A stretch of DNA of 64,000 bases from Candidatus Acetothermia bacterium (GTDB taxonomy: Bacteria; Bipolaricaulota; Bipolaricaulia; Bipolaricaulales; Bipolaricaulaceae). Made by a program: the position numbers and the translations under genes. Below are positions 6,671 through 55,161 of this stretch, one piece after another. The stretch covers positions 1-64,000 of the forward strand of contig JANLFW010000003.1 of the NCBI GenBank assembly GCA_024653305.1. Direction: 5' to 3'. Within the stretch, counting starts at the first letter, position 1. Each line of letters begins with the position of its first letter. Below the pieces are notes generated by a model. That model worked only from the letters and a program-made list of their open reading frames with translations, was not told the DNA's origin and ran no database searches.

Positions 6671-8140
6671 ATGAACAACAAACAGGACTTGATGGACAAG
6701 GTCGTTTCGCTGTGTAAACGGCGGGGGTTCATTTTTCAATCGAGCGAGATCTACGGAGGAATCGGCGGGTTCTGGGACTACGGCCCCCTCGGGGTAGAGC
6801 TCAAACGGAATGTCAAGGAAGCGTGGTGGCGGGACATGGTCACCGGCCACGACGACACCACCCCGCCCCCGGGGATGCCGTCGGCGTACGCGATGGTCGG
6901 CCTGGAAACGACGATCATCATGCATCCCCAGGTGTGGAAGGCAAGCGGCCACTACGATCTGTTCCACGACATGCTCGTGGACTGCCGCCACTGCAAAGCC
7001 CGGTTCCGCGCCGATCAGCTCCAAACCGGCCAATGCCCGCTCAAGCCAAGCAAGCACCCCGGTGAGCACACCGCCTGTGACCTCACCGAGCCGCGGGAGT
7101 TCAACCTCATGTTCAGGACCTACGTCGGGGCGTTGGTGGACCCGGAGTCGGAGGCGTTCCTGCGGCCGGAGACGGCCCAGGGGATGTTCGTCAACTTCAA
7201 GAACGTGCTGGCCACGGCCCGGGTGAAGCTCCCGTTTGGCATCGCCCAGACCGGCAAAAGCTTCCGCAACGAGATCACCCCCCGCTACTTCACGTTTCGT
7301 TCCCGCGAGTTCGAGCAGATGGAGATCGAGTTCTTCTGCCGCCCGGCGGAGTCCCCCCAGTGGTACGCGTACTGGCGGGACCGTCGGTTCCAGTGGTACG
7401 TGTCCCTGGGGCTCTCCAGCGAGAGGCTCCGCCTGCGCGAGCACGGCCGAGAGGAGCTCAGCCATTACAGTTGCGGTACCGCCGACATCGAATACGCGTT
7501 CCCGTTCCTTCCCCAGGGCGAGTTCGGCGAGCTTGAGGGGATCGCGCACCGCGGCGACTTCGACCTCCGCAGCCACATGGAGGGCAAGCTCGTCCGGCAA
7601 GGGGACGAGCTCGTGGTGGAGCTGGGCCCGGACGGGAAACCCCGGCACCCGGGGAGCGGGAAGGACCTCACCTACTTCGACGAGGAGACCCAGGAGCGCC
7701 TGATCCCCCATGTGATCGAGCCCTCGGCCGGAGTGGATCGGTCGGTGCTCGCGTTCCTGTGCGAGGCGTACGCCGAGGATGTTGTTCCTGACGAGAACGG
7801 CGTCCCTCAACCCCGGGTAGTCCTGAAGCTCCATCCGCGTTTGAGCCCGGTCAAGGTGGCGGTGTTCCCGCTCGTCAAGCGTGACGGGATGCCGGAGGTG
7901 GCGATGGACATCTACCGCGAGCTCAAACGCCACTGGAACGCGTTCTACGACGAGAAGGGCTCCATCGGCCGCCGCTACCGGCGTCAGGACGAGTCGGGAA
8001 CGCCGTTCTGCATAACCGTGGACAGCCAGACCCTGAAGGATGGGACGGTCACCGTGCGCGACCGCGACACCACCCTCCAGGAGCGGGTGGCAGCCAAGGA
8101 GTTGGTGACGTTCCTGCGGGAGAAGCTGGGGCCGGTGTAG
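6671..8140 (+). CDS. glyQS: Glycyl-tRNA synthetase, homodimeric class II
   Basis: A 489-residue class II synthetase that charges tRNA-Gly. It is the alpha2 form and not the alpha2beta2 form. The N-terminus MNNKQDLMDKVVSLCKRRGFIFQSSEIYGG and GFWDYGPLGVELK are hallmarks. FLRPETAQGMFVNF and AQTGKSFRNEITPR cover motif 2, SREFEQMEIEFF follows, and the C-terminal anticodon-binding domain begins around LSPVKVAVFPLVK. The cysteine pair DCRHCKA near residue 105 suggests part of a zinc site. The ATG has an upstream AAGGGATGAG Shine-Dalgarno. It is transcribed in the same direction as sppA, 74 bases upstream of it. Confidence 0.95.
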   Translation: MNNKQDLMDKVVSLCKRRGFIFQSSEIYGGIGGFWDYGPLGVELKRNVKEAWWRDMVTGHDDTTPPPGMPSAYAMVGLETTIIMHPQVWKASGHYDLFHDMLVDCRHCKARFRADQLQTGQCPLKPSKHPGEHTACDLTEPREFNLMFRTYVGALVDPESEAFLRPETAQGMFVNFKNVLATARVKLPFGIAQTGKSFRNEITPRYFTFRSREFEQMEIEFFCRPAESPQWYAYWRDRRFQWYVSLGLSSERLRLREHGREELSHYSCGTADIEYAFPFLPQGEFGELEGIAHRGDFDLRSHMEGKLVRQGDELVVELGPDGKPRHPGSGKDLTYFDEETQERLIPHVIEPSAGVDRSVLAFLCEAYAEDVVPDENGVPQPRVVLKLHPRLSPVKVAVFPLVKRDGMPEVAMDIYRELKRHWNAFYDEKGSIGRRYRRQDESGTPFCITVDSQTLKDGTVTVRDRDTTLQERVAAKELVTFLREKLGPV

Positions 8141-8214
8141 GGGACGCTTCCGTGGTGGGCGTGGGGATGGGCGAGCCGGCGCGGGCCGCGCCCACGTGAA
8201 AGGGGAACGAGGAC

Positions 8215-9909
8215 ATGCTCGGTTACATCGCGTTTGCCCTGCGGTATGGGGTGTGGAAGCTTGCTAACCTCCATCGTCGGCTGCGGTGGGCCCCGGACTA
8301 CGTGCTGTTCGTCCTCGACGGCACGTACCCCGACCTTCGCCCCCCGCGGGCCGGTTTCGTCCAGCGCAAGCTGTTCCCGCCCGAGACGAGCCTCCAGGAC
8401 CTGGCCGAGCGGTTCCGCGCCGTGGCCGGCGACCCGCGCGTGCGGGGCGTGGTGCTCAACTTGCGGTTCTTGGACATGCCTCTCCCGCAGCTGCAAACGC
8501 TGCGCGACCTGATCGCGGAGCTTCAAGCGGCTGGGAAACGGGTGGTGGCTTGGTCTACCCGGTACGACACCGCCAGCTACTACGTGGCCTGCGCCGCCGA
8601 CGAGATCCTGCTGCAGCCCGGCGGGGGGATCGCCCCGCTTGGGCTCCGGCAGGGGTTCCTGTTCCTGGCCGATGCCCTGGAGCATCTGGGGATCCAGGCC
8701 GATGTGGTCCAGATCAGTCCGTACAAGACGGCCTTCGACACGGTGGCCCGGAGCAGCATGTCCGCGGAGATGCGGGAGATGGTGGACTGGCTCATGGACG
8801 ACCGCTACGCTCAGCTCCTCCAGGGCATTGCCACTGGGCGGCGCATGGACGAGGGCCGCGCCACGGCGCTCGTGGACAACGCGCCGTACACCGACCTTGG
8901 GGCGGTGGAGGCAGGGGCGGTGGACCGCCTGGCCCGCGAGGAGGACCTGCCGGCATACCTGGGGACCGCCAACCGTCCGGCCCGCCTGCTCCCGTGGGAG
9001 GAGGCGCGCCCGCGCGTGCGGCGGCCGCCCCTTCCCCGTCCAGGCCGCTATGTGGCTGTGCTCCGGATCGAGGGGACCATCGTGGACGGCCGGAGCCGGC
9101 GGCCGCCGTGGAAGCCCCCGGTGCGGGTGCCGCTCGTGGGGGGACCCCGCGCCGGGGACCTCACCGTGGTCCAGGAGGCACGCCGGGCCCTGGCCGACAG
9201 GCGTGCGGCGGCGGTGGTGGTGTACGTTGACTCCGGCGGCGGCTCGGCCACGGCGTCGGAAGCGATGGCCGCGGCCCTGAGCAAGCTCGCGGCGAAGAAG
9301 CCGGTGGTGGTGGCGATGGGGGCGGTGGCCGGGTCCGGAGGCTACTACGTGGCTACCCCGGCGTGCTGGATCGTGGCCCAGCCGGGGACCATCACCGGGT
9401 CCATCGGCGTCCTCGCCGCGAAGATCGTCACCGCAGGCCTCCTCGATAAGCTCCGGTCCCACCGGGAACTGATCACCCGCGGGCAGCACGCCGCGTTCTA
9501 CGACCCCGGACGGCCGTTCAGCGATGAGGAACGAAAGAAGGTCTGGGAGAGCATTCACCGCACCTACGACGTGTTCGTGGACCGGGTGCAGGACGCGCGC
9601 CGCCTGTCGCGGGAAGCGCTGGACATCAGCGGTCGCGGCCGCGTGTGGACGGGCCGGCAGGCACGGGAACGGGGCCTGGTGGACGAGCTGGGCGGGGTCG
9701 AGGCGGCGCTGGCCAGGGCCCGGACCCTGGCCGGGCTGCACCCGCGGGCACCGGCGCGGGAGGTCAAGGTGGGCAAGCGGTGGCTGGCACCGGCTCAAGA
9801 ACGGGCAACGCTCCTGGAGTATGCCCTGGAGGGGTTGCGCGCCCTGGAGCGCGCTGGCCCGCTCCTCCTATGCCCGCTCCTGTGGTCCGACGAGGGCGAA
9901 GGACCGTGA
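8215..9909 (+). CDS. sppA: Signal peptide peptidase SppA, tandem-domain type (protease IV)
   Basis: A 564-residue membrane-bound serine protease that degrades cleaved signal peptides. It has the double-domain layout of E. coli SppA. The N-terminal half carries the catalytic lysine in SPYKTAFDT (Lys171). The C-terminal half carries the nucleophile in AGSGGYYVA (Ser374). IGVLAAKIVT, GRVWTGRQARERGLVDELGG and the DSGGGSATASEAM strand are typical of the C-terminal S49 domain. The N-terminus is hydrophobic but short and could be a membrane anchor. Start chosen at the ATG with AAAGGGGAACGAGG ahead of it. It is convergent with the leuC-type gene. Confidence 0.92.
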   Translation: MLGYIAFALRYGVWKLANLHRRLRWAPDYVLFVLDGTYPDLRPPRAGFVQRKLFPPETSLQDLAERFRAVAGDPRVRGVVLNLRFLDMPLPQLQTLRDLIAELQAAGKRVVAWSTRYDTASYYVACAADEILLQPGGGIAPLGLRQGFLFLADALEHLGIQADVVQISPYKTAFDTVARSSMSAEMREMVDWLMDDRYAQLLQGIATGRRMDEGRATALVDNAPYTDLGAVEAGAVDRLAREEDLPAYLGTANRPARLLPWEEARPRVRRPPLPRPGRYVAVLRIEGTIVDGRSRRPPWKPPVRVPLVGGPRAGDLTVVQEARRALADRRAAAVVVYVDSGGGSATASEAMAAALSKLAAKKPVVVAMGAVAGSGGYYVATPACWIVAQPGTITGSIGVLAAKIVTAGLLDKLRSHRELITRGQHAAFYDPGRPFSDEERKKVWESIHRTYDVFVDRVQDARRLSREALDISGRGRVWTGRQARERGLVDELGGVEAALARARTLAGLHPRAPAREVKVGKRWLAPAQERATLLEYALEGLRALERAGPLLLCPLLWSDEGEGP

Positions 9910-49730: not shown

Positions 49731-52682
49731 GTGCAGCACCGGGTGGATCGGTACCTCGCGCGGGAGATCGTGCCACCGTTTGGGGTGGCCCTGCTCGCGT
49801 TCCTGGTGTTCATCGGCCTGGAACTCGTGATCTCCCTGTCCGATGCCGTGTTCGCCCGGGGGGCGGGGGCCGCGGAGATGCTGCGCCTCCTCCTCTACAA
49901 GCTCCCGAGCCTCCTTACCTTCGCCATCCCCGCCGGGGCCCTCCTCGCCACCTTCCTCGCGTTCGGTCGCCTGGCCGCGGACCGGGAGCTCCTTGCCTTT
50001 CAAGCCCTTGGGTACTCCCTACGGCGCCTGACCGTGCCGTTCCTCCTGTTCGGGGTCGCGGCGAGCGCGCTTTCCTTCTCGCTCGGGGAGTTCGGCGCCC
50101 CCCCGGCCGAGGCCGCCTACCGCCGGGAGCTCATGGCGATCCTGTACCGGGGGTCGGTGCCGAGCATCCAGGAGGACGTGTTCTTCCGTGGGGCGGAGGG
50201 GGAGCTCTACTACGTGGAGCGGTACGACGGGCAGCGGGTGATGGGGGTGGTGGTGTACGACCTCCGCGGCAGGCTGTACCCCCAGGACGGGCCGTTCCCG
50301 AACGTGATCACCGCCCGTGAGGGCTGGTTCCGCGGGGGGACGCTGGAGCTCCACGGCGGGCGGGTGCTGCGGTTCGCCTCGGACGGGGGGCTGGAGGAGC
50401 TGGTGCGGTTCGAACGCTTGTCCCTGGAGGTGGGGGAGGACGTGCAGCGGGCAGTGCTGGGCGGCAAGACCCCGAGCGAAATGTCCCTGCGCGAGCTTGC
50501 GGAGCGCATCGACCTCTTGCGCCGGAGCGGGCTCGATCCCCGGGCGCTGGTGGTGGAGTACCACGGGAAGCTCGCGATCTCCGTGGCGGCGTTCGTGTTC
50601 GTGCTGTTCGGCGCCCCGCTGGGGGCGCTCCTCGGGCGACGCGGCCGGGCCACCGGCGCCATCGCCGGGTTCCTCCTCGCCGCCGCCGCCCAGGCCTTGT
50701 TCGTCTGGGCCCGCACCATGGCCCGCCGCGGCGTGCTTCCGGCGTTCCTCGGGGGGTGGCTCCCCCACATCGCGTTCGGCCTGCTCGGACTGGTGCTGTT
50801 CCTGGCGGTGGACCGGCTCCGCCTGCGGGGGACCCTGGCGTTCCTGCTTCTGGCGATGATCGGGGTGGGCGCGGGTGCTGCCCCTCCGTTCGCCGAGTTG
50901 TGGGCGGACGAGCTCGTGTTGGATTCCGCGGGCACGGTCCTCACCGGGACCAGGGTCCGCGCCCACTTCCAAGGGTACACGCTCGTCGCCGCGCACCTGG
51001 TGGCGAGGGAAGAGGAGGGGTGGACGGTGGAGGCGACCCAGGCCTCCCTCACCGGTTCCGACGGCGAGCTCCAGGCCGAGCACCTCACCGTGCGCTTCAC
51101 CCCCGACGGGGAGCCGGCCGGGGCGGTGGCCGCGGGCTTCGCCGGCCGGTCCACGTTCCGTGGCCCAGAGAAGGAGGAGACGCTCCTCTTCTCCGGGGCA
51201 TGGGGGGAAGCCGAGCTCGCGGACGGGGAACTGGTGCGGCTCGAGGCGCGGTCGGTGCGGTTCACCACCTGCCCCTGTTTCCCTCACGCCCCCTACCTCG
51301 TACGCGCCGATCGGTTCGTGCTCCGGCCCGCGAAGTGGCTGTTCGCCGAAGGGGTGACGGTGGAGTCGTTCGGCGTTGCCGTGGGTTGGCTCCCGTTCTA
51401 CGCGGCCCGCCTGGGGGAGGAGGCATCGCCCCTGTTCCCCGAGGTGGGCCGGGCCGGGGCGGATTGGCTCTTGCGTTGGTCCTTCCCCTGGGCCTTCGGG
51501 GAAGGGGTGGCGGGGGCGGCAGATCTCACCTGGTACGTGGGGACGGGACGGGTCGACCCGGCCATCCAGGCGGTGTGGGATACAGGGGGGATCTGGGCTA
51601 GCCCTACCGGCCTGCGGTTGCGCGCGGAAGGGCGGTGGGAGGGCGAGCCGTGGCGGGCGGCGCTGCGGGTGACCGAGGACCAGCTCTCCGCGGACCTGTC
51701 CGGGGACCTGGCGGGGTGGGCGTGGTCCCTGTCCTGGGGGCGGGTGGAGGCGGGAGACCAAACCTACGAGCGCATGCCCGAGTTCTCGCTCACGCGGCCC
51801 AAGGTGGAGTGGCTGGATGGGACGTTGGCCGTCACGCTCTCCGGCGGCCGCTTCCGCGAAGGGCAGACGGAGAGCTTGCGGGCCGGGGTGGACCTCTCCT
51901 GGTCCCGCCGGTGGGTCGTGGGGCCGGCCGTCGTGGACGTTCCGTGGCGGTTGGGGGTTGACCAGTACCGGGAGGCAGGGCGCGCCTTCTTCTCGCTGTC
52001 CCCACGGCTGACGGTGGGGGGGCTGTCCTTCGGGTACCAAGGGCGGTGGGAGGTCGGCCGGTCGCCGTTCGATTTCGACGCGACTCCGCCCCTGAGTCGG
52101 CTCGCGCTCGAGCTTGCCACCCGCGCCGGGGGGTGGCGGGAACGGCTGTCCCTCGGGTGGGACCTGGCCGCGGAGGCGGCGCTCCCAGCGAGGTGGAATC
52201 TCTCCCGGCCCGGGCTGTCCTGGGAGGTCACGTTCCTCCCGGCCCCCTTCGCCCTGCACGGGAGCACGTGGTCCCTGAGCTGGCAGGACGAGGGGGTGGC
52301 GGTCATCGTGGTCGGCGGGTTCCGCGCTTCCCCGTGGCGGTGGGAGGACACGCTGGTCAAAGGGCACTGGTCCGGGGAGGCGTTCTCCCTGTCCGGCGGG
52401 GCACGGGTGGCGGCTTCCCCGGCGCGGGTGACCAGGGTAGCGCTCGCCGGGGAGTGGCGGCCGGTCCCGGAGTGGGGCCTCGGGCTCGCGCTGGAATACG
52501 ACGGCCCGACGGCGCGCCTCGTGCAGTTGGAGGGGAGCGTTGTCCGTGTGTTCGCCGGGTGCTTGCGGGTGGGGGTGGTTGCCACCCTCACCGGGATCCG
52601 GTTCACGGTGGAGGTGCCCGCGTTCCCCCAGGCCAAGATCCGGTTTGCTCCGCTGGACGAGGGCCTGCAGATCGGGGAGTAG
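49731..52682 (+). CDS. LptF/LptG permease fused to an LptD-like beta-barrel
   Basis: A 983-residue fusion. Residues 1-355 are an LptF/LptG permease, the inner-membrane part of the ABC exporter that pulls lipopolysaccharide or related lipids out of the membrane: three N-terminal helices, a periplasmic beta-jellyroll (residues about 120-265) and three more helices. Residues 360-384 then read like a signal peptide (VDRLRLRG, a hydrophobic run, GVGAGAA). After this comes an OstA/LptA-like segment and the LptD motif VRFTTCPCFPHAPYLVRAD near residue 514, with VGWLPFYAARLG. Alternating-strand barrel sequence continues to the end. LptD is normally a separate outer-membrane protein. The partner ATPase (LptB) is not here. 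The permease may alternatively end near residue 359, with an internal GTG (50808) starting LptD. Confidence 0.82.
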   Translation: MQHRVDRYLAREIVPPFGVALLAFLVFIGLELVISLSDAVFARGAGAAEMLRLLLYKLPSLLTFAIPAGALLATFLAFGRLAADRELLAFQALGYSLRRLTVPFLLFGVAASALSFSLGEFGAPPAEAAYRRELMAILYRGSVPSIQEDVFFRGAEGELYYVERYDGQRVMGVVVYDLRGRLYPQDGPFPNVITAREGWFRGGTLELHGGRVLRFASDGGLEELVRFERLSLEVGEDVQRAVLGGKTPSEMSLRELAERIDLLRRSGLDPRALVVEYHGKLAISVAAFVFVLFGAPLGALLGRRGRATGAIAGFLLAAAAQALFVWARTMARRGVLPAFLGGWLPHIAFGLLGLVLFLAVDRLRLRGTLAFLLLAMIGVGAGAAPPFAELWADELVLDSAGTVLTGTRVRAHFQGYTLVAAHLVAREEEGWTVEATQASLTGSDGELQAEHLTVRFTPDGEPAGAVAAGFAGRSTFRGPEKEETLLFSGAWGEAELADGELVRLEARSVRFTTCPCFPHAPYLVRADRFVLRPAKWLFAEGVTVESFGVAVGWLPFYAARLGEEASPLFPEVGRAGADWLLRWSFPWAFGEGVAGAADLTWYVGTGRVDPAIQAVWDTGGIWASPTGLRLRAEGRWEGEPWRAALRVTEDQLSADLSGDLAGWAWSLSWGRVEAGDQTYERMPEFSLTRPKVEWLDGTLAVTLSGGRFREGQTESLRAGVDLSWSRRWVVGPAVVDVPWRLGVDQYREAGRAFFSLSPRLTVGGLSFGYQGRWEVGRSPFDFDATPPLSRLALELATRAGGWRERLSLGWDLAAEAALPARWNLSRPGLSWEVTFLPAPFALHGSTWSLSWQDEGVAVIVVGGFRASPWRWEDTLVKGHWSGEAFSLSGGARVAASPARVTRVALAGEWRPVPEWGLGLALEYDGPTARLVQLEGSVVRVFAGCLRVGVVATLTGIRFTVEVPAFPQAKIRFAPLDEGLQIGE

Positions 52683-52697: not shown

Positions 52698-53243
52698 ATG
52701 ACCAGGAAGAAGAGGATCCCTGACTGGCTTACGGCGAGCCGGGTCCTGATCGCCCTGGCCATCTTGGCCCTAATCCCCGCCGGTCCCCGGGCCTTGCGGG
52801 CGGTGGCCTGGCTCCTCCTCGTGGGGTGGACCACCGACATCGTGGACGGGCGCCTTGCCCGCCGGTGGGAGAAGGAACCCAGTTGGATCGGAGAGCACGA
52901 TTTCCAGATCGACATGCTCATGGTGCTCGCCAGCGCGGTGTACCTGGTGGCCACCGGCCTCGTGCCCCGCGCCGTGGGCATCGTGTACCTCGCGGTGGGG
53001 CTCCTGGTCGCCCTGGCCGTGCACAGCCGCTCCGCCCAGTTCCTTCGGTTCAAAGCGGTGACGATGCTGATCGCCTTCCCCTGGGTGTTCCTCCCGTTCG
53101 TGGTGGCCTACTTTTACGATCCGTTGGCTGCCTACGTGGGGCTGGCGTGGACGGCGGGCGCCCTCCTCGTGGACCGGCGCCGGTTCGCCGGGGTGGTGGG
53201 GGACTTCCTGTCCGGGGCCCGCGCGTTCTTGCGCCGACCGTGA
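52698..53243 (+). CDS. CDP-alcohol phosphatidyltransferase family protein
   Basis: A 181-residue membrane enzyme transferring a phosphatidyl group from CDP-diacylglycerol to an alcohol such as glycerol phosphate. The family signature DGxxAR(x8)Gx3Dx3D is seen in DGRLARRWEKEPSWIGEHDFQID, with all acidic metal ligands present. About five membrane segments follow. The short size and WLTASRVLIALAI opening resemble PgsA-like proteins. The alcohol cannot be told from the sequence. It has its own promoter and ends convergent with ruvB. Confidence 0.88.
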   Translation: MTRKKRIPDWLTASRVLIALAILALIPAGPRALRAVAWLLLVGWTTDIVDGRLARRWEKEPSWIGEHDFQIDMLMVLASAVYLVATGLVPRAVGIVYLAVGLLVALAVHSRSAQFLRFKAVTMLIAFPWVFLPFVVAYFYDPLAAYVGLAWTAGALLVDRRRFAGVVGDFLSGARAFLRRP

Positions 53244-53250
53244 GCCCTTG

Positions 53251-54252
53251 TTAGAGGAGCCGGCTCGGGGTCCGTTCGAGGTGGGCGTAGGCCTTGTCCG
53301 TGGCCAGCCGTCCCTGGGGGGTACGGCGGATGAACCCCAACGCGATCAGATAGGGTTCGTAGAGCTCGGCGATCGTGTCCGGGTCCTCCCCCAGGGCCGC
53401 GGCCAACGTCTCCAACCCCACCGGTCCCCCGTCGAACCGATCGATGACGACCCCCAGGATCTTGCGATCCAACCCGTCCAGTCCCTTCTCGTCGATGCCC
53501 AGCATGGACAAGGTTTCCTCGGCCACGGCCAGGCTCACCGTGTTGGTCCCGGCCACCTGGGCCACATCGCGGGCCCGGCGGAGGAGGCGGAGGGCGATGC
53601 GGGGCGTGCCCCGGGCCCGGGTGGCCAGCTCCCGGGCCGCCCGTTCCTCCACGTCTACCCCCAGCCGGGGCGCGACCCGGCGGATGATCTCGGCCAGCTC
53701 CTCCGGCCGGTAGAAGTCGAGACGGAACACGACCTCGAACCGATCCCGGAGGGGGGCGGTGAGGAGCCCCTCCCGGGTCGTGGCCCCGACCAGGGTGAAC
53801 GGGGCGAGGTCCAGGCGGATGGAACGGGCGTGGGGGCCCTCCCCGAGGACGATGTCCAGCTTGTACTCCTCCATCGCCGGGTACAGGATTTCCTCCACCT
53901 GGGGTCGCAGGCGATGGATCTCGTCCACGAAGAGCACATCGCCCGGGGAGAGGTGGGTGAGGATCGCTGCCAGGTCCCCCGGCCGTTCGATGGCCGGGCC
54001 GGAGGAGACCTTGATGTGCCCCCCGATCTCGTGGGCGATGATGTAGGCGAGGGTGGTCTTCCCGAGGCCGGGGGGGGAGAGGAGGAGGACGTGGTCCAGG
54101 GGCTCGTTCCGCGCTCTGGCCGCCTGAATGTAGACCTGGAGGCGCTCCTTGATCTCCGTTTGCCCGACGAACTCGGCCAGGGTGCGGGGACGCAGGGCCC
54201 GCAGGGGCTGATCCGTGTCCTGCCGTTCCGCGCCGAGATCCCGTTCGGCCAT
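53251..54252 (-). CDS. ruvB: Holliday junction branch migration ATPase RuvB
   Basis: A 333-residue AAA+ motor that drives Holliday junction migration with Ruv[23 protein letters not shown] opens the core. Walker A is [16 protein letters not shown]. Walker B is [11 protein letters not shown]. Sensor 1 is [27 protein letters not shown], and the C-terminal winged helix is around [31 protein letters not shown]. The ATG at 54252 has no Shine-Dalgarno but a TACAAT box eight bases upstream. ruvA and ruvC are not in the window. Confidence 0.95.
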
Positions 54253-54260
54253 CGTGGGCC

Positions 54261-54290
54261 ATTGTAGCCCGCCCGCGCGGGGATGGGCAA
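54261..54290 (-). promoter_or_regulatory. ruvB promoter (leaderless type)
   Basis: Minus-strand TTGCCC (54290-54285) and TACAAT (54266-54261) are separated by 18 bases; the -10 box ends eight bases before the ATG. It is back to back with the promoter of the TolB-like gene. Confidence 0.55.
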
Positions 54291-54295
54291 CGGGT

Positions 54296-54324
54296 TTGTC
54301 ACCGCGTGCGTCCGTCCCTAAAAT
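54296..54324 (+). promoter_or_regulatory. Promoter of the TolB-like gene (leaderless type)
   Basis: TTGTCA (54296-54301) and TAAAAT (54319-54324) are separated by 17 bases. The -10 box ends nine bases before the ATG at 54334. Its -35 lies five bases from that of the divergent ruvB promoter. Confidence 0.6.
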
Positions 54325-54333
54325 GGGCAGGCA

Positions 54334-55161
54334 ATGCGCTGGATCCTGGGGGTGCTCGTGGGGTTCCTGGTCCCGCTCGGTGCCGGGGGGGGGTTCCTCG
54401 CCCTGACCTCCCTCGATTGGTCCGTCGACGGCCGGTTCGTGCTGTTCTGCGAGGCCGGTGATCTGTACATCGGCCTTGCCCCGAGCGGCCGGGAAGCGCG
54501 CCCGCTCACGTCCGGTGCCGGCACGGATTGGGGACGCTTCGGCCCCGGGGATTGGTTCGTGTACGCGACCCCGGTGGAGGGAGGGTACACCCTGTGGCGG
54601 GGCCGGCTGTCCGGGGAGGAGCCGGAGGAACTCTTGTTCCTGCCGGCCCTCATCGCCCGACCCGCGGTGTCCCCGGATGGAAGGCGGATCGCGTTCGTAT
54701 CCAACCGCGACGGCCCTTGGGACCTGTACCTCCTGGATCTCGAGACGCGTCAGGTCAAACGCCTGACCGAGACGGATCCGGAGTGGCTTGAGGACACCCC
54801 CGAGTTTTCCCCCGATGGCCGGTTCCTCATGTTCGTCGGGCTGTGGGGCACCGGCCCGGAGGGGAGCTGGGACATTTTCATCCTCGATCTCTTGTCCGGT
54901 GGGGTGGAACAGTTGACCGAGGACCCGTTCTTCGATTGGTGTCCCCGTTTCTCCCCGGATGGGGAATGGATCGCGTTCGAGTCCAACCGACGCGGACCTT
55001 CGGACATCTACTTCATGCGCCGCGACGGCCGGAACCTGACCCCGTTCACCCACGACGCTTGGCGGGATGCCTTCCCCTGCTGGTCGCCCGCCGGAGACCA
55101 GATCGGCTATGCCTCCTTGCGCGTCGGCGGGTGGGTCCTCCTCGCCGAGGGGACCTACTGA
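54334..55161 (+). CDS. TolB/WD40-like (PD40) exported beta-propeller protein
   Basis: A 275-residue protein with an N-terminal signal or anchor ([24 protein letters not shown]) and four to six PD40-type repeats, each with SPDGR ([82 protein letters not shown]). This is the TolB-like propeller, but TolB's N-terminal domain is missing. A periplasmic scaffold or sensor role is plausible; function unknown. It has its own leaderless-type promoter and is followed by ribF after 26 bases. Confidence 0.83.

Follow-up and report, generated by a model that had tools for sequence, protein, structure and literature searches.

A single gene for an LptF-type permease and an LptD-type barrel, with a signal-peptide-like joint, in Bipolaricaulota and Thermotogota

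The canonical Lpt machine of Escherichia coli is assembled from LptB2FGC, LptA and LptDE, and its LptD component carries an interdomain disulfide formed by a hinge cysteine and a cysteine of the C-terminal barrel. The permeases of the LptF family have both their N and C termini on the inner side of the membrane (N-in/C-in). Several departures from this plan are already known, including the presence of Lpt parts in diderms without LPS, as in Borrelia (PMC10353723), and the use of a single LptF/G in diderm Firmicutes (PMC5007114). The domain family DUF3769 corresponds to the LptD family of cyanobacteria (PMC4365693). Thermotogae have been said to be without nearly all of the outer-membrane genes studied, and lptD was never found in the atypical diderms (PMC8871954). 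The envelope type of Bipolaricaulota is considered uncertain, and no LPS genes are reported for this phylum (PMC6092417).

We analysed a window of 64,000 nucleotides from a Candidatus Acetothermia bacterium of the phylum Bipolaricaulota (contig JANLFW010000003.1, positions 1 to 64,000), which is part of contig 3 of a source genome of 1.59 Mb that is 95% complete. A preliminary description made from the letters of this DNA had proposed that a continuous frame of 983 codons encodes an LptF/LptG permease and an LptD-like barrel as one polypeptide. The frame proved to belong to a real gene rather than to be a chance product of GC-rich DNA, and both domain identities are now well supported by Pfam matches, predicted fold and conserved cysteines (Table 1). 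A full-length fusion frame with 95% identity is present in a separately assembled Bipolaricaulota MAG (L002, the nearest named record), and the single-contig genomes G004 and G005 carry an uninterrupted fusion frame with 59-60% identity. Because the uninterrupted frame recurs in these and many other genomes, a frameshift or misjoin is excluded. Long chance frames do exist in GC-rich DNA, for example one of 782 aa on the opposite strand, but the fusion frame is present in an independent MAG, in single-contig genomes and in the genome of Thermotoga maritima, and we assign a negligible probability to the idea that an artefact of any of these kinds has joined two genes.

Table 1. Features of the fusion gene, with positions numbered from the first nucleotide of the window.
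Feature	Position	Strand	Basis and comments
lptF~lptD fusion gene	49731..52682	+	GTG start, 983 aa; open frame; full-length homologues in both phyla
LptF/LptG permease domain, residues 1-362, six helices and periplasmic domain	49731..50816	+	PF03739; TIGR04407/TIGR04408 below cut-off; hydropathy
Internal signal-peptide-like segment, residues 363-384	50817..50882	+	Alignment; site scores; N-terminal signal peptide in split relatives
LptA/LptD-type beta-taco (jellyroll) domain, residues ~384-560	50880..51410	+	AlphaFold2 strands; PF03968 in 21/67 homologues
Cys514, TTC motif	51270..51272	+	68/68 homologues; likely counterpart of LptD hinge cysteine
Predicted LptD beta-barrel, residues ~571-972, ~26-27 long strands	51441..52646	+	AlphaFold2, mean pLDDT 91; Foldseek
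Cys944	52560..52562	+	67/67 homologues; probable partner of Cys514 in the disulfide

The LptF/G topology proposed for the N-terminal part is matched by a PF03739 (LptF_LptG) hit that spans residues 7-358 and nearly the entire profile (positions 1-352 of 353; E = 1e-79; 268 bits versus a cut-off of 27.9), and by six LptF helices in the hydropathy profile. The same profile reveals a seventh hydrophobic segment at residues ~363-390, which was overlooked when six helices alone were placed ahead of the barrel part. Scores against the equivalog models for LptF (TIGR04407, 167.5 of 230 bits) and LptG (TIGR04408, 154 of 240 bits) stay below the cut-offs, and therefore the permease half is classified by its sequence as a member of the LptF/LptG family but as neither of the two in the strict sense. 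For brevity, we refer to it as LptF. The only PF03739 match in the whole 95% complete genome is the fusion protein itself, such that neither a separate lptG nor any other lptF/G gene was found by this search.

The identity of the C-terminal half emerges only from its family alignment and fold. A Pfam scan of this half alone returned no match up to an E value of 10, and the window protein alone matched no LptD model. In contrast, a profile built from an alignment of 67 homologues (A1) identifies LptD (8h1r, E = 2.7e-4) as its best match among PDB sequences, and Pfam searches with the 67 homologues yield PF03968 (LptD_N) in 21, DUF3769 in 17 and PF04453 (LptD) in three. AlphaFold2 models residues 385-983 with high confidence as an all-beta chain, and the Foldseek matches to this model in the PDB are all LptD structures from rank 1 to rank 37, the best being a full-length alignment with 4q35 (E = 2.2e-21). 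Residues 385-983 are thus predicted to be LptD, with a beta-taco followed by a barrel of ~26 strands. This model confirms the barrel-like C terminus of the preliminary description and contradicts a non-barrel fold. A search for a separate lptD elsewhere in the source genome found none.

A motif typical of LptD had also been reported near residue 514, and the sequence TTCPCFPHAPY indeed occupies residues 512-522. Cysteine occurs three times in the window protein, at positions 514, 516 and 944. Two of these are conserved throughout the alignment (C514, in TTC, in 68/68 sequences; C944 in 67/67 homologues), and among Thermotogota representatives the TTC motif is present in 30/30 and the C-terminal cysteine in 28/30. 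C514 and C944 are likely to be the counterparts of the cysteine pair that forms the LptD interdomain disulfide.

The LptD half lies behind LptF and has no N-terminal signal peptide of its own; the signal-peptide-like segment, between LptF helix 6 and the beta-taco, is internal to the chain. In this joint, positive charges are followed by a hydrophobic core and then by small residues, a pattern shared by almost every fusion in the two phyla. The joint of the window protein reads RLRGTLAFLLLAMIGVGAGA/APPF (slashes mark candidate cleavage points), and its best signal peptidase I site is GAGA/APPF, after residue 383. The aligned joints of relatives resemble textbook signal peptides (RRLVPFVLVLGWVSAAWA/QEPPP and LLFFSLALPVRA/QEM), and a Thermotogota example is LTRFLAVLFVILLASHAQA/ATMQ. 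Given the N-in/C-in topology of LptF, the segment would be oriented N-in/C-out.

Candidate sites were scored with a matrix derived from 26 E. coli signal peptides. By this E. coli-derived measure, the window site scores 7.4; for the 26 peptides themselves, scored leave-one-out, the median is 10.4 and the 10th percentile 5.9. Compared with copies whose cores were shuffled, the joints score significantly higher in each phylum (Fisher p = 5e-12 and 9e-7). Helix 3 of the same proteins passes this comparison as well in Bipolaricaulota (Fisher p = 7e-8), and a high score by itself is therefore not specific. The sites of Thermotoga joints often score modestly, and the best site of T. maritima is ambiguous (4.6); a candidate cleavage point there is SSLFS/SQVV. 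A plain count of AxA motifs was rejected as a test for signal peptides, as helices 3 and 5 also give positive results; small-residue ends are almost as frequent on these helices as at the joint.

The best evidence on the joint comes from relatives in which the two halves are separate genes. In the split relative G072, the LptF frame ends immediately ahead of the segment and the free LptD starts with MRAIAAVAAVVCAVLAPVVLA/AD; in G441, which is independent of G072, LptF stops at the same place and LptD starts with MHLRYKSFSPVLFIISLFFIILSGTKVFS/AT. In both, the joint segment takes the place of an ordinary N-terminal signal peptide. This anatomy suggests that signal peptidase I may cleave the fusion protein near residue 383.

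The remaining parts of an Lpt machine reside outside the window. The source genome encodes one LptB (G000:C14:31442-32143; 268 bits versus an equivalog cut-off of 240), and its gene (L081 7440-8156, minus strand) is located behind pyrG on G000:C14. Directly upstream of lptB, and overlapping its start, is an unannotated gene for a protein of 204 aa (8140-8754, minus strand) that adjoins lptB in 30/30 loci. This protein has no Pfam match, and the profile of its family found nothing among PDB sequences. Its LptC/LptA-like character is visible by fold only, in that a model with a pLDDT of 91 most closely resembles LptC of the LptBFGC structure 6mit, followed by LptD and LptA. A search of the whole source genome with PF03968 gave no match, and the bridge protein was therefore found by its position beside lptB. 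Together, lptB and the LptC/LptA-like gene complete a minimal Lpt set. The earlier suggestion to look for lptB, lptA and lptE nearby is thus answered in part, since lptB was located with this neighbour, whereas searches of the source genome found no separate LptA and no LptE (PF04390; a diverged LptE would escape this search). One Omp85 protein is encoded. LpxC is missing from all 100 Bipolaricaulota genomes examined and was detected in control genomes, and for this reason lipid A, and hence LPS, is probably not the cargo.

The fusion is a general feature of Bipolaricaulota, with a match to the family in 91/100 genomes. In 62 genomes, one uninterrupted match covers both parts, and in 13 more both parts share one frame, such that the fusion is intact in at least 75; most of the remaining matches are at contig edges. 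True splits occur in G072, where the halves are far apart, and in G043/G044, where they are adjacent in overlapping frames. Two other candidate splits (G484 and G068) were rejected because both are contig breaks. In a profile search of 389 genomes, the same fusion was found in two genomes outside Bipolaricaulota, both belonging to a second phylum, Thermotogota. There, 101/103 genomes have a match and ~87/103 have one frame of ~1,050-1,490 aa. The search of related genomes suggested in the preliminary description thus finds the fusion across both phyla.

One of these Thermotogota genomes (G477) represents T. maritima, since genes neighbouring the fusion there encode proteins with 100% identity to the PDB entries 1YT5 (NAD kinase) and 1IN4 (RuvB), both T. 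maritima structures. Counted from ompA2, which is TM1729 (PMC3387000), the fusion gene would be TM1735. OmpA2, an outer-envelope SLH protein (PMC3387000), is encoded ~3.5 kb upstream of the fusion (L138 1297-2520, plus strand), and an envelope gene cluster may exist at this location. In T. maritima, a few genes separate ruvB (L138 2617-3621) from the fusion. The window has ruvB (53251-54300, minus strand) two genes downstream of its fusion, which might reflect old synteny. Directly 3' of the window fusion is a gene for a CDP-alcohol phosphatidyltransferase (52698-53243, plus strand), perhaps forming an operon that couples lipid synthesis with a lipid exporter. A TolB-like beta-propeller with PD40 repeats and a hydrophobic N terminus is also encoded nearby (54334-55161, plus strand) and may be an envelope protein.

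In a tree of 81 LptF domains, Bipolaricaulota and Thermotogota form one clade (support 100/98) with the split forms nested inside, although the outgroup was sampled from those other genomes that scored best, and the tree therefore does not prove vertical descent. Because of this topology, a single fusion event with later fissions is the likely history of these sequences. Some loci show other arrangements. The Thermotogota genome G393 (L155/L182, L156) differs from the rest of the phylum in carrying a pair of neighbouring permeases and, at another location, an unfused LptD; this system might have been transferred or might represent the ancestral type. In G149, an in-frame stop (L090 5781-5783) splits the barrel part of the gene into 755 and 394 codons, compared with ~1150 in relatives, and could be a sequencing error, decay or recoding. 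In another phylum, family f85 (L094, L158) has lptF, then a gene for a long protein in which LptA-like repeats occur several times, then lptD; the long protein resembles a bridge made as a single chain of repeats.

We consider the best explanation, with a probability of roughly 0.7, to be that the translation product is a polyprotein, which signal peptidase divides into a self-paired LptF and the outer end of a minimal Lpt bridge with a cargo other than lipid A. LptF would be translated first and its six helices would enter the inner membrane, leaving the growing chain in the cytoplasm. The joint segment would then act as an internal signal peptide to start export of the LptD part, and signal peptidase I would cleave the chain near residue 383, releasing the LptF permease and mature LptD in a 1:1 ratio. 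Omp85/BamA would insert mature LptD in the outer membrane. Since the genome appears to be without LptG, LptF would presumably pair with itself and associate with LptB. The products of the fusion gene, LptB and the LptC/LptA-like protein encoded beside it would constitute a three-gene bridge that exports another amphiphile to the outer-membrane surface.

The preliminary description had offered either a tether or a polyprotein. Processing is favoured because the joint has the anatomy of a signal peptide and because two independent fissions (G072 and G441) retain the segment in that role. If the chain instead remained uncut, residues 363-384 would be a seventh helix and one protein would be rooted in both membranes, a covalent link that provides each permease with an exit port. 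Retention of the fusion in two phyla after a likely single origin would fit such an arrangement, in which a physical link could be useful, as would the modest site scores of Thermotoga joints. A precedent from another lipid system is the long MlaD of Veillonella, one chain in both membranes (PMC10665443). However, the joint ends in signal-peptidase-like sites, and an LptF dimer would carry two barrels. Only one beta-taco of ~175 residues would extend from helix 7 to the barrel, which, judged from E. coli LptD, is short for a normal periplasm. In at least two fissions, moreover, the signal peptide was retained and neither half was lost, indicating that the covalent link is dispensable. The short span and these losses make a permanent membrane-to-membrane tether rather improbable, but the MlaD precedent keeps it worth considering as the main rival.

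The fusion could also be a neutral relic, in which loss of a stop codon joined adjacent lptF and lptD genes to no advantage, and this history is compatible with cleavage of the product. In several other phyla, a separate lptD directly follows lptF (L095, L161, L162, L164), an obvious starting point for the fusion, and splits recur within the fused clade. Yet by far most genomes of both phyla still carry the gene in one piece after a very long period, more than would be expected if fission were free, and we view strict neutrality as unlikely.

The fusion places LptD and a minimal Lpt set in the Thermotogae, including T. maritima itself, whose outer membrane was thought to lack this machine. LptD was probably missed earlier because its sequence has diverged and the annotation is taken by the LptF part in front of it. 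Given that Bipolaricaulota are without LpxC, another lipid is probably exported to the surface. The finding is also relevant to the question of whether these deep lineages descend from a diderm. Moreover, an internal signal peptide that splits a permease from a barrel, if confirmed, would be an unusual route to matched amounts of both ends of a machine. T. maritima can be cultured, and cleavage is therefore testable.

Full-text searches of the open-access literature found no description of an LptF-LptD fusion or of its internal signal peptide. The initial impression of an undescribed system holds within that scope, whereas the fusion is no peculiarity of this genome, being characteristic of two phyla. 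Like the canonical E. coli machine, the system has an LptF/G-type permease, an LptB ATPase, an LptC/LptA-like bridge protein and an LptD composed of beta-taco, barrel and interdomain cysteine pair. It differs in combining LptF and LptD in one gene with a putative internal signal peptide, in having one permease type and one bridge gene found, and in the absence of LptE and of LpxC, and so of lipid A. The reduced Lpt system of diderm Firmicutes also employs a single LptF/G homologue, OstA-type bridge proteins and LptB, but it has no recognised LptD and serves organisms that make LPS (PMC5007114), whereas here LptD is fused to the permease and LpxC is absent. The LptD barrel is shared with cyanobacteria, to whose LptD family (DUF3769) the C-terminal domain of the fusion gives weak but recurrent profile matches, but the cyanobacterial protein is separate (PMC4365693). 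Borrelia burgdorferi likewise combines a diderm envelope lacking LPS with Lpt components, LptD among them, yet these are all separate proteins and LptF and LptG are both present (PMC10353723). The long MlaD of Veillonella also unites an inner-membrane domain and an outer-membrane barrel in one lipid-transport chain, but it belongs to an unrelated family, is proposed to be an uncut trans-envelope bridge, and is not reported to have a signal-peptide-like joint (PMC10665443), the element that in Bipolaricaulota and Thermotogota may separate the two ends of the machine.
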